The notes under the pieces: model-generated | The model's database searches: none | Told to the model about the DNA's origin: nothing | What the model saw: only the letters and a program-made list of their open reading frames with translations | Part shown: positions 16,955 to 23,688 of the stretch, one piece after another | Layout: each line of letters starts with the position of its first letter | Position numbering within the stretch: position 1 is the stretch's first letter | Made by a program: the position numbers and the translations under genes | IMG/VR virus record: IMGVR_UViG_3300029922_000300 | Span: 1-23,858 of that record | Direction: 5' to 3' (one strand) | DNA: 23,858 nt | DNA from: a virus

Positions 16955-17022
16955 TCGATTGCCTCTGCTTTCTGCTCGTCAGGAAGTTCGATGATGATGC
17001 GGTTTCGGTCACGAATTATCAA
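16759..17022 (-). CDS. Hypothetical overlapping gene (87 aa, TTG start)
   Basis: TTG at 17022 overlaps the terminase stop (TTGA) and the frame runs 87 codons to TAG. The unshared first part, MIIRDRNRIIIELPDEQKAEAI plus EWIFTHLF, looks like genuine protein: a beta strand and then an amphipathic helix. The rest (SELEAKRQSKKLESANVEAV) is charged and helical but is also the other frame of the 160-residue gene for 196 bases. A GGTGGG lies very close (three bases) to the TTG. Either two overlapping genes exist, or a frame change joins the start of this frame to the 160-residue frame. Function unknown. Confidence 0.45.
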   Translation of the reverse strand: MIIRDRNRIIIELPDEQKAEAIEWIFTHLFSETTSTPSLEKHRSVVPSEAKLSELEAKRQSKKLESANVEAVQKRTTGAIYPWITRK

Positions 17023-18848
17023 ATTCCCACCAGCCTATTCGGTGAATTTTTCTTCTTGTCGTACCTCTGAAGCATTCTCAGATGGTCATTAGAGTTGAAC
17101 AGAAGCGCCCCAAATGCCGTAGTACTAGGGTCGTTTACCCAAGTCAACGCTGATGCGTCCTCGGACGTACTGGCCCTGCCAGTAAGAGCAATCTGAGCTG
17201 CTGCCAACTCTTCAGCAGTCAACATTACATTTCGAGACTTCCGTTTCTTGCATGTAGTTGGGTGAAACTGTTCTTTCGCAATCCAACCCAATAACCCCGC
17301 CATGAAAACATCATCGTGTCCGACTGCCACCTCCCAACGGAAGTTTTCAATTTTAGCCGCTGTCATCTGTGCCACAAAAACCTTGTCTCTTGGAATAGCT
17401 TCTTTCCGGTAAAGCGATGTCCTGAAAAGATTGAACATCATTGACCTATATCGTGACGTTGTCTCGAATCCGAACGCTGTACCCGGCTTTCCATCGAACT
17501 TATCGTCTCTCCCCTTCCATCGATACTGATTCGGGTAGAAGTGCCTGTCTCTCAGGTCGCGCATCACGACATAGCCAAGTCCATTTAGCTCTACGTTCAA
17601 GCAAGCATTGTTGAAGAATCTGCCAATCAATCCGGCGTACTCGGCAAGGGTCTCAGGAGATACTCGGCTCATGTAACGCGCTGCCATGTTTCCCGTCTCT
17701 GCGTTCCACATGATGATTGCAGCATAATCCCCCACTCCGATGTTATTCTCGTCACCACGGGCGGTATCAACCCCAGCAAAGTAGTGTTCTCCCGGCTGGG
17801 GCATCTCCCATATTGCCAACAAAGATTCATCTGGATGGGTTGATGGTTCAAACTCTGGTCTACCCGTAACAGTATTTTTTACGATTCGTCCATAATGAAT
17901 CGGATTCATCTTCGACAGTTCTGCAAACTGGACTTCCTGATGAGAGAATGCAGGCTGACCAGATGCGATAAACGCCTCTTGTGGAGTAGATGGGTATTCA
18001 GCCCTCCAGTTATCAATCGACGATTCGCACTTCGTATGAAGAGTGTTTCTGAACCACGCAATGCGATCCTTTCCAAGTTTGATCGGCTTCTTTGTGATTG
18101 GGTCATAAAGATCGTTCATCAACCACTTTTCGTAGTCGTCAGCCGGAGCATCTTCCGCATCTTCTGGATTTCCTACATAGTTGTCATCCTGAAACCACGG
18201 AAGGAAGATCGGTAGGAACTCATTGTCTCCGGCCTCGGCTCCATTCCAATACTCGTAGTAAGACTCTCCCGGCCCCTCCATCCCGTTCGCAGTAGTTTCA
18301 ATCAAGCAAACATTGTCAGGATCAGATGACAGTGTGTTTAGAATGCTGGTGTAAGCCCCCTCATACGGGTAGAAAGCAGCCTCAGTCATGTGGACAGAAG
18401 ATAGAGTCATGCCACGCTGGCCATGAACTGTTGCCGCCGTATATGATTTCAAGTCTGAAGGTTCGGCGTTCTGGTGGAAGTAGTCGATCTTCTTGGAAAC
18501 AAAATCGACGTGAGGATTAATCCCCTTCAAGTCTTTTGCCATCATCTTCGCTTGAGAGAAGATAGTGTTTCCTACTTCGATGTTCTGAGCAATGATTGCG
18601 GCATGTGCGTCTGACCGAGAAGCAATGTGGGATATTTGAATCAGGTTAGCAAATGTAGAGATACCAAGACGACGACCCTTCAAGAAAATTATGTACAGTC
18701 TTCGCTTCTTGGCAATATGCTCTTTCGCCTGCTCAATAATCTGCATCTGCTGAGGGCGAAGTTTAAACGGTATTCTATAACCCAAGTCCCGATCTCGGAT
18801 AGACAATCGGGACGCAAGTTTTACAACACGATCTAGGTCTAGGGGCAT
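17019..18848 (-). CDS. terL: Terminase large subunit (packaging ATPase-nuclease)
   Basis: The 609 residues show both motor and nuclease signatures. ATPase: Walker A-like KGRRLGIST (57-65), Walker B-like SVHMTEAAF (151-159, Glu156 as likely catalytic carboxylate), and coupling motif LIETTANG (182-189). The linker motif WRAEYPSTPQEAF (281-293) is typical of terminases. The RNase H-like nuclease has acidic residues at GVDTARGD (Asp361), NVELNGLG (Glu420) and GHDDVFMAGLL (Asp512/513). Length is normal. The enzyme docks on the portal, cuts concatemers and drives DNA into the prohead. The start at 18848 directly follows the TAA of the upstream zinc-finger gene; the stop overlaps the TTG of the 87-residue frame. 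Confidence 0.95.
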   Translation of the reverse strand: MPLDLDRVVKLASRLSIRDRDLGYRIPFKLRPQQMQIIEQAKEHIAKKRRLYIIFLKGRRLGISTFANLIQISHIASRSDAHAAIIAQNIEVGNTIFSQAKMMAKDLKGINPHVDFVSKKIDYFHQNAEPSDLKSYTAATVHGQRGMTLSSVHMTEAAFYPYEGAYTSILNTLSSDPDNVCLIETTANGMEGPGESYYEYWNGAEAGDNEFLPIFLPWFQDDNYVGNPEDAEDAPADDYEKWLMNDLYDPITKKPIKLGKDRIAWFRNTLHTKCESSIDNWRAEYPSTPQEAFIASGQPAFSHQEVQFAELSKMNPIHYGRIVKNTVTGRPEFEPSTHPDESLLAIWEMPQPGEHYFAGVDTARGDENNIGVGDYAAIIMWNAETGNMAARYMSRVSPETLAEYAGLIGRFFNNACLNVELNGLGYVVMRDLRDRHFYPNQYRWKGRDDKFDGKPGTAFGFETTSRYRSMMFNLFRTSLYRKEAIPRDKVFVAQMTAAKIENFRWEVAVGHDDVFMAGLLGWIAKEQFHPTTCKKRKSRNVMLTAEELAAAQIALTGRASTSEDASALTWVNDPSTTAFGALLFNSNDHLRMLQRYDKKKNSPNRLVGI

Positions 18849-22242: not shown

Positions 22243-22668
22243 TTATGGATGGACGTTGTCAGAGTAGATGAGGCTGAACCCTTCCTGCGGATGGCCGGCT
22301 CGGGCATTGCTGCTCTGGTACCCTATGGGTTTGGGGAGTATGGAATCAATAACTTGAGGGGATGGGTAATATGGTAGAGCCGATCGAGCAGCCGCCATCT
22401 GCTTGATTGATCTTACCAAAGCCATCTCTTGCAGGGCTGAAGCTGCTATGTACCCAGCATGTTCGATTCGCTCATCGATACTACACATTGGGATTGTTCC
22501 GCATTGCCTGCATAGGCCACGATGAATATAGTGCGGACTATCATCGGCGGGAAACCCGCACTCACAGCAATACATCCCCTTAGACGCGATATAACGGGTG
22601 CCATCTTCAGTTTTTCCCCATACGGGTTTCTGCGGATATATGCTTATATCATCTCCCCTCGCTTGCAC
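22243..22668 (-). CDS. Zinc-ribbon protein of unknown function (141 aa)
   Basis: This 141-residue protein starts with GTG 22668, overlapping the RHH gene by 25 bases; AAGGG lies close upstream. The exact start is uncertain because no ATG precedes residue 32. The core MYCCECGFPADDSPHYIHRG plus LCRQCG gives C34-x2-C37 ... C53-x2-C56, a zinc ribbon, with an extra Cys at 62. A helix (RIEHAGYIAASALQEMALVRSIKQM) and a Pro-rich tail follow. Linked to the RHH gene, it could be a regulator partner; nothing more specific is visible. Confidence 0.6.
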   Translation of the reverse strand: MQARGDDISIYPQKPVWGKTEDGTRYIASKGMYCCECGFPADDSPHYIHRGLCRQCGTIPMCSIDERIEHAGYIAASALQEMALVRSIKQMAAARSALPYYPSPQVIDSILPKPIGYQSSNARAGHPQEGFSLIYSDNVHP

Positions 22669-23321
22669 TTGCCCTTGTGGCCATCAATCAGTGCGCAGTG
22701 GTAGCTCTCGCCATCATCCTCGCAGAACTCGACGTGTGAGCACGGATCAGGTACATCAGATAGTGCGCTCGACACGCCATACGCATCTCGCGTGATCCGG
22801 CCATTATTGATACACATAGCAGATGCAGCATCATCGGTACCCGGTACGCAGGGATCGATACCTATTGCGAGTGCATCCTGTATGCCTAGTGCGCAGGGAT
22901 TAATCGTAGACTCGACCACTCCCTTGCCTATCTTGCCAGCAGCAATCGCTCGCAGAGCATCCATGTTGTACGTCACCGGAGGCACCACAACAGCCAGAGG
23001 TGATAACGGACCAGGCTCAGATCGGGTATCAAGCACGGCGACCGCCTTACTTGCACTCCCATCTATAGTATTGCGCTCGCTCCGACGCACCGCCTGCACA
23101 ATAAACCAATCCTCATAATCACACAAACAGAGAGGGCGACTACCCTCATCAGAGCGAAGTATCGCCAACGTATCAGAATCCTCGCCGCGCTCAAGATGAC
23201 GCCAGCAAGCATCCACAATCAAGCTCGCCACGCTCACGCCGACGCTCTTAGCCGCAAACTCCAGTTGCCGCTTGAGATCAACAGGGACTCGCATCGTGTA
23301 AGACACAGTATCAATAGCCAT
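22644..23321 (-). CDS. Ribbon-helix-helix DNA-binding regulator with Cys-rich C-terminus
   Basis: From ATG 23321 (MAIDTVSYTMRVPVDLKRQL) the protein is 225 residues. The N-terminus matches the RHH fold: beta strand YTMRVPVDL, helix A (KRQLEFAAKSVG), turn, and helix B (VSVASLIVDACWRHLE). The fold is that of Arc, CopG and ParD. The middle is unusual, with three [ND]PC phrases (INPCALG, IDPCVPG, PDPCSH). The end has CSHVEFCEDDGESYHCALIDGHKGKC, like small 'C-x(n)-GHxGxC' zinc or disulphide motifs. The gene is preceded by direct repeats of a 10-base word that overlap its start codon, a layout typical for self-repression. GGAGG lies about 11 bases upstream of the ATG; a TTG at 23339 is the alternative start. 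Confidence 0.75.
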   Translation of the reverse strand: MAIDTVSYTMRVPVDLKRQLEFAAKSVGVSVASLIVDACWRHLERGEDSDTLAILRSDEGSRPLCLCDYEDWFIVQAVRRSERNTIDGSASKAVAVLDTRSEPGPLSPLAVVVPPVTYNMDALRAIAAGKIGKGVVESTINPCALGIQDALAIGIDPCVPGTDDAASAMCINNGRITRDAYGVSSALSDVPDPCSHVEFCEDDGESYHCALIDGHKGKCKRGEMI

Positions 23322-23395
23322 GTAAGACAAACCCTCCAAAGATGTAAGACAAACCTATCAGATATGTAAGACAATGGCGAGGATTATGTAAGACA
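23296..23395. repeat. Phased direct repeats ATGTAAGACA (operator or iteron array)
   Basis: Copies begin at 23320, 23342, 23364 and 23386 with an exact 22-base step and conserved ATGTAAGACA; the following 12 bases differ. A fifth copy (GTGTAAGACA) begins at 23296, inside the RHH coding sequence, at 24 bases. The copy at 23320 covers the regulator's ATG. A 22-base step is two helical turns, so bound dimers would lie on one face of the DNA. Confidence 0.85.
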
Positions 23396-23643
23396 TTAGC
23401 CCAGCAATCGCATGCAAATTGCTCTTTGATCGATTACAAACCCCAACGAATCAATCGCAACCTTATTAGATTGAGCGAATCTCTCTGTAAATCACTGTAA
23501 GCGCGGAAATGGGCGGAAATCTGTATCTGGTAGTGGTGCCTGTGTGGTATCAGGTAGAGCGCGAGGATTAGCACGATTGCACTTGTGAATATCTTGTGCA
23601 AATCTCTGATTGGTGCGATGTGGAGCATCATGTAATGCGCTAA

Positions 23644-23682
23644 TTCTCCACTATTTGCAATCATTCTCCACTTTTCTCCACT
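23644..23682 (+). repeat. Three TTCTCCACT repeats at 10-base phasing
   Basis: The word TTCTCCACT begins at 23644, 23664 and 23674, spacing 20 and 10 bases, so all copies lie on the same face of the helix. The last copy ends six bases before a -35 candidate of the plus-strand gene, a position suited to a regulator site. Confidence 0.6.
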
Positions 23683-23688
23683 TTTCGC

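Follow-up and report, generated by a model that had tools for sequence, protein, structure and literature searches.

Few small regulators of phages and plasmids are as common as the RHH repressors, whose sites can rarely be predicted from sequence. Arc of P22 contacts bases through Q9, N11 and R13. Direct contacts are known between dimers of Arc, MetJ, CopG and omega, and RHH dimers that touch one another sit about 7-12 bp apart, not 21-22 bp. Many RHH antitoxins repress their own operon. The YlcI/YnfO proteins (NCBIfam NF041551) carry an N-terminal RHH-like stretch, and we know of no operator for them. In CopG of pMV158-type plasmids, the operator overlaps the promoter of its own gene and forms one compact element. 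SmpO is an RHH protein that acts in plasmid transfer at oriT; a single-residue change at position 7 of its strand was shown experimentally to switch the DNA site, and protein and site co-vary among its relatives (PMC8136818). The RHH centromere-binding proteins ParG and omega bind repeats before their own operon and double as repressors (PMC5016525).

The locus described here belongs to an uncultivated phage and combines an RHH gene with a phased array of one word. The window, by which we mean the whole stretch of DNA analysed, is a complete IMG/VR record of 23,858 bases, a linear fragment that ends ~540 bp upstream of the RHH gene. Its relevant features are as follows.

23387-23395, minus strand: word 1 of the putative operator, TGTCTTACA, the outermost, upstream copy (from the sequence).
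23365-23373, minus strand: word 2, TGTCTTACA (from the sequence).
23343-23351, minus strand: word 3, TGTCTTACA (from the sequence).
23321-23329, minus strand: word 4, TGTCTTACA, whose last base is the A of the start codon (from the sequence; same overlap in L022, L038 and L090).
23297-23305, minus strand: word 5, TGTCTTACA, within the V-S-Y-T codons (6-9), which encode the predicted DNA-reading strand (from the sequence).
23352-23360, minus strand: predicted extended -10 box TGATAGGTT, a candidate that lies immediately upstream of word 3 (placed as in L022, L038, L090, L121 and L007).
23395-23403, minus strand: predicted extended -10 box TGGGCTAAT, the other candidate, which reaches word 1.
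23332-23337, minus strand: ribosome-binding site GGAGGG, 10 nt before the ATG and between words 3 and 4 (from the sequence).
22644-23321, minus strand: RHH regulator gene, 225 aa, ATG at 23321 (phrog_582 match and AF2 model).
22935-22964, minus strand: MDALRAIAAG segment in the middle of the RHH protein, kept in relatives (alignment with relatives).
22665-22742, minus strand: C-terminal Cys/His motif CSHVEFCEDDGESYHCALIDGHKGKC, possibly zinc-binding (kept in relatives).
22243-22668, minus strand: next gene of the operon, overlapping the RHH gene by 25 bp, with no family match (ORF and profile searches).
17019-18848, minus strand: large terminase gene, downstream of the RHH gene (phrog_2, E 2e-22).

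On the gene strand, the five copies of the 9-mer TGTCTTACA begin at 23395, 23373, 23351, 23329 and 23305 around the start of the leftward RHH gene, with steps of 22, 22, 22 and 24 bp. Read on the plus strand, ATGTAAGACA begins at 23320, 23342, 23364 and 23386 with a step of 22, and the fifth copy, at a step of 24, is GTGTAAGACA at 23296. The exact unit common to all five is therefore the 9-mer TGTAAGACA, which reads TGTCTTACA on the gene strand and has the form of a pseudo-palindrome, TGT-N3-ACA. The first-pass annotation had described four words at a 22-base step and a fifth at 24 bases inside the coding sequence, and these positions are exact. It had also placed the array over the start of the RHH gene; the overlap stands, with the corrections that the gene lies on the minus strand and that the word at 23321-23329 covers the start codon. 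The array is far beyond chance and unique within the window. In 200 first-order Markov resamplings of the window, which keep its dinucleotide composition, no 10-mer exceeded two phased copies at one step, against four in the real window. There are no other exact copies of TGTCTTACA in the 23.9 kb, and the one-mismatch copies (2954, 3398 and 20107) are not phased.

The ATG at 23321 is the most likely start of the RHH gene, with GGAGGG at 23337-23332. Residues 4-48 of its product, hereafter the window protein, match phrog_582, the Arc-like repressors, with an E-value of 7.5e-6 (1e-8 to 1e-4 in relatives). All Pfam RHH models score below their cut-offs (RHH_5, E 0.0021), and the best NCBIfam match, to the YlcI/YnfO family (E 5e-6 to 1e-2), is likewise under its curated cut-off throughout. 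An AF2 monomer model of residues 1-50 (pLDDT 80.6) places helices at 14-27 and 31-45 after the strand region. VIA-align of this model gave Z-scores of 5.5-6.3, with CopASO and PutA up to 6.3, Arc at 5.6 and CopG (1ea4) at 5.5, and nearly all of the rows were RHH proteins; Foldseek E-values were not significant, as expected for a domain this small. The model thus indicates, for residues 5-45, the strand-helix-helix fold with a hydrophobic core of the RHH (MetJ/Arc/CopG) superfamily. From the alignment with Q9-N11-R13 of Arc, the base-reading residues should be S7, T9 and R11, which lie in and beside the stretch encoded by word 5, whose codons are GTG TCT TAC ACg.

The ~180 residues beyond the RHH domain include two conserved stretches: MDALRAI-AG and, at the C-terminus, a Cys/His motif that ends in CAL-x2-GHKGKC. 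The Cys-containing extension of roughly this length, remarked on in the first-pass annotation, is thus present in the 225-residue protein, and it recurs in relatives, this Cys/His extension being conserved in three members. Full-length AF2 gave no confident prediction for it (pLDDT about 35-50). The C-terminal motif appears to be a mobile phage module, since in phage contig L044 (1433-1678) a C-terminal GEQYRCALAAGHKGKCKPGE module is fused to a zinc-ribbon-like sequence in place of the RHH domain, beside a TerS-like gene. The linker of the window's RHH gene contains an imperfect 28-base repeat (71%) at 22828-22900; in L121 this region is shorter by ~108 bases.

Among the closest described systems are the Arc-like phage repressors (PHROG 582; P22 Arc), with which the locus shares an N-terminal strand-helix-helix domain, a phage origin, probable autorepression and the contact pattern S7-x-T9-x-R11. 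The window protein differs from them in its long extension with the Cys/His motif and in adjoining packaging genes, and its sites are 9-bp pseudo-palindromes at 21-22 bp rather than adjacent half-sites. With CopG it has in common the RHH fold and an operator that would overlap its own promoter, but it is not above the Pfam RHH_1 cut-off, it carries the extension, and its words are separate at two-turn spacing. The likeness to SmpO lies in the residue at position 7 and in the co-variation of protein and site; here the site is on the gene's own promoter and start rather than at oriT, and the co-variation has been read from sequence only. ParG and omega resemble it as RHH proteins that act on repeats before their own operon, whereas the window has no partner ATPase recognised among the ORFs scanned, an N-terminal RHH domain, and repeats over both the start codon and part of the coding sequence.

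When IMG/VR was scanned for word pairs at a distance of 21-23 bp, 35 loci emerged, as compared with 15 for the reversed control word. Among the 35 are two that nearly duplicate the window. Two others, L022 and L038, found by the DNA pattern alone, encode a protein of the window's kind (49% and 34% identity), and a wider DNA-pattern scan added a third relative with the same RHH type, L090. This protein type was seen in only five distinct phages, for the most part on short contigs; a near-identical copy of the L022 protein on a fifth contig (L043/L049/L123) is cut off ahead of its start codon and so stands outside the comparison of words. In each of L022, L038 and L090, the last base of one word falls on the start codon, and a second word occupies the VSYT codons, 24, 15 and 24 bp further on, respectively. 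Relatives that kept the protein and lacked an upstream repeat would have spoken against the link between regulator and array; instead, all three keep the word at the same places.

The codons under word 5 seem to be constrained as DNA. V6, S7 and Y8 are written GTG TCT TAC in the window, L022, L038 and L090, so that 18 of 18 codon pairs are identical, as compared with 22 of 72 pairs for the other 12 invariant degenerate residues of the RHH domain, none of which (0/12) is identical in all four (Fisher p 0.002). The T9 codon reads ACG, ACG, ACC and ACT, with the third base released just at the end of the word. L022 and L038 were selected by word pairs upstream of these codons, so for these two the codon result is no consequence of the selection; L090 was selected by a pair that includes the codon word and is therefore the weaker of the three in this respect.

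Predicted promoters in the relatives have a common geometry. Extended -10 boxes abut a word in L022 (TGTTAGAAT), L038 (TGCTATACT), L090 (TGGTATAAA), L121 (TGGCTTAAT) and L007 (TGTTAGATT); boxes of such a score occur at ~4% of positions. In all five, one word covers the predicted transcription start, and in most of them another lies between the predicted -35 and -10 elements. The messages of L022, L038 and L090 would then be leaderless, starting at or near the ATG. Relative to these, the array of the window is longer by one unit, with the ribosome-binding site GGAGGG between words 3 and 4; it has two candidate -10 boxes and a weak -35, and a simple promoter scan of the window reported none at the array. 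As in RHH autorepressors, the words lie over the gene's own start, where they meet the start codon in the window, L022, L038 and L090, and next to predicted extended -10 boxes.

A natural exchange is seen in L121, which was found, as was L122, by protein similarity. From the MDALR segment onward, the coding DNA of L121 is 90% identical to that of the window (183/203 aligned bases), whereas its RHH domain shares only 45% amino acid identity and its strand reads P-L-S-L-R in place of S-Y-T-M-R. No TGTCTTACA was found within 350 bp. Instead, GGTAATACC and GGTATTACC stand 22 bp apart around the promoter and start, and GGTAGTACAC follows 13 bp on. With domain and word both different and the C-terminal coding DNA 90% identical, operator and RHH domain appear to have been exchanged together with the spacing kept. 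The one relative that lacks TGTCTTACA thus bears a different phased word along with its different domain, and the assignment of the array to the RHH regulator in the first-pass annotation is supported by the comparison of relatives. Such co-variation of strand and word is plausible given the switching of specificity at position 7 of SmpO (PMC8136818), and it gives indirect support to a homodimer that would read DNA by an antiparallel beta ribbon.

We conclude that the array is very probably the own operator of the RHH protein encoded there, which would repress its own operon. Each TGTCTTACA would be a pseudo-palindromic site for one RHH dimer, a stoichiometry suggested by the pseudo-palindrome of the 9-bp word, and the paired strands V-S-Y-T-M-R, with contacts S7, T9 and R11, would lie in the major groove. 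At two helical turns from site to site, bound dimers would line one face of the DNA and cover the promoter, transcription start, ribosome-binding site and start codon. They would thereby shut off the leftward transcript that runs from the RHH gene to the terminase and structural genes, so that regulation would be negative and would reach the late genes. Cooperative binding in the manner of CopG, as proposed in the first-pass annotation, is doubtful: a step of 21-22 bp, or two turns, is too far for direct contacts of the kind made at about 7-12 bp, so any cooperativity would have to rely on the extension or on bending of the DNA, and in phage L007 the same 21-bp step accompanies an RHH protein of 47 residues that has no extension. 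The pairing of this 47-residue protein with 21-bp arrays also led us to abandon the notion that the two-turn step is imposed by the extension.

The genomic setting agrees with such a role. From the RHH gene to the left end of the window, all genes, among them those matched by PHROG to terminase, capsid and other virion proteins, lie on the same strand. In all five phages the RHH gene is upstream of or beside terminase genes, which themselves belong to two different families (phrog_2, phrog_38). A self-limiting promoter heading the packaging genes is the simplest reading.

The word also occurs outside this phage family. A three-word scan of 84,980 species genomes gave 22 loci. Four of these are Spirosoma loci, where TGTCTTACA/TGTAAGACA, spaced mainly by 21 bp, immediately precede an unrelated RHH gene whose strand is T-W-S-I-R. 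In four Spirosoma genomes (5-8 Mb) every 21-bp word pair is at the RHH locus. Nine three-copy matches (L051, L052, L055, L058, L063, L064, L067, L068 and L071) resemble plain tandem minisatellites and were set aside. In a protein search of the Spirosoma family, the array accompanied 5 of 5 TWS (TWSIRG) loci with upstream DNA, which are closely related and not five independent events, and 0 of 13 relatives whose first contact residue is P, V, L, Q or R. Where it is P the words are TGTCATACA/TGTATGACA (L164; TGTATGACA in L152), and where it is R they are TGTCCGACA/TGTCAGACA (L172). Across Spirosoma and its relatives (L054, L059, L066, L070, L152, L164 and L172), strands TWSIRG, PWS[IV]RG and RWTIRG each have a different upstream TGT-N3-ACA word, a natural data set for an RHH recognition code.

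Among viruses, the L007 group has the same word pair at a 21-bp step before operons that encode a 47-residue RHH protein with the strand T-I-T-I-R. L007, L008, L014, L028 and similar related phages share a promoter, TTGCAT-17-TAGATT, with one TGTCTTACA in the spacer and another at the start site; it drives variable small genes and then the 47-aa RHH gene. An RHH gene lies within ~700 bp of 6 of 12 independent non-window viral arrays and of 0 of 15 reversed control arrays (p 0.003), or of 4/10 against 0/15 when L022 and L038 are left aside (p 0.017). TGTCTTACA pairs at L013, L019, L020 and L030 have no evident RHH neighbour. L019 / L031 carries eight TGT-N3-ACA words in ~200 bp, mostly TGTCTTACA or TGTAAGACA and in both orientations, also with no evident RHH neighbour. 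The steps of all viral word pairs peak at 21 and also at 12 and 15, so spacing alone was not taken as proof.

Further searches yielded no additional relatives. The RHH domain and the L121 protein had no significant relative among annotated phages and plasmids, blastn of the array region matched none of the phages, and no candidate from scanning species genomes with the RHH alignment was confirmed by tblastn. Among 297 genomes of the phylum of the Bryobacterales MAG L050 there were only weak generic RHH matches. A literature search with 'repressor' and 'operator', whose coverage takes in few subscription journals, found no report of TGTCTTACA as an RHH operator.

Judged by these comparisons, what appears to be new is an operator that lies within the codons for the strand that should read it, a natural cassette swap, and one word that recurs across unrelated RHH families. 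Sequence features, namely the phased word, the frozen codons and the natural swap of domains, indicate a site for the regulator of an uncultivated phage, and TGTCTTACA also leads to RHH genes in unrelated organisms. A broader reading is offered tentatively: RHH repressors with a strand [ST]-x-[ST]-phi-R may converge on TGTCTTACA across unrelated families and several phyla, with a change of the first contact altering the word predictably, and in the present family operator and RHH domain may form one cassette in which the operator lies partly in the reading-strand codons, locking protein and site together. If true, this convergence would amount to a readable RHH recognition code with natural swaps. 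If confirmed, strand residue 7 (with 9 and 11) could predict operators genome-wide, and the family would be a neat case of an operator written in the coding sequence of its own reader.

Other explanations were weighed against the auto-operator. The array could be an iteron or centromere-like site, with an RHH protein that, as ParG or omega does, has its main role in replication or partition and regulates itself only secondarily. Direct repeats at ~22 bp do resemble iterons, the centromere-binding RHH proteins likewise bind repeats before their own operon, the window protein (P0001) and its relatives have weak matches to PHROGs named 'partition protein ATPase', and the contig ends ~540 bp upstream. 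We nevertheless consider it distinctly unlikely: the words are centred on the -10 box and start codon with one in the coding sequence, terminase genes adjoin it, L022 and L038 make do with two to three words, and no ParA-type or Rep gene was recognised adjoining the RHH gene. More generally, no ParA-type partner ATPase was recognised among the scanned ORFs, a partial coverage, of the relatives and of the window fragment with its end 540 bp upstream. A toxin-antitoxin pair, in which an antitoxin-like RHH protein and the overlapping downstream gene share the operator, is suggested by the autorepression of many RHH antitoxins and by the 25-bp overlap of the next ORF. That ORF has no family match, however, and the relatives have other genes in the partner's place: TerL in L042, TerS/TerL in L121 and a different small gene in L120. 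With no conserved toxin gene beside the RHH gene in the window or the relatives compared, a type II system is extremely improbable.

It is very unlikely that the word stands before RHH genes by coincidence, being bound by some other regulator, of the host or of the phage, or acting as a promoter element. Pairs of TGTCTTACA do precede other genes, and the array promoter of the L007 group drives varied small genes before the RHH gene. But the word changes along with the RHH strand in two unrelated families, and four whole Spirosoma genomes have the pair at the RHH locus only, where a host factor would predict many genomic sites. A role that would add to the auto-operator rather than replace it, that of a switch controlling both divergent transcripts, had been proposed in the first-pass annotation and is unlikely. 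The one divergent gene in view runs rightward from 23764, but its start is separated from the nearest word by 369 bp and has no word close by; in the relatives, the next upstream genes L042 (L022 contig), L119 (L090 contig) and L120 (L038 contig) show no divergent arrangement; and a separate repeat, TTCTCCACT, lies nearer to the rightward gene.

A probable auto-operator of the leftward operon is the reading that we retain. Upstream of the rightward gene, TTCTCCACT occurs three times at 23644-23688 (steps 20 and 10) and may be a second, separate operator for that gene. This phage is represented by three assemblies, the window (23858), L018 and L024, whose right ends all fall inside a 60-bp interval, 519-579 bases from the same word, and may mark a real end or a variable junction.
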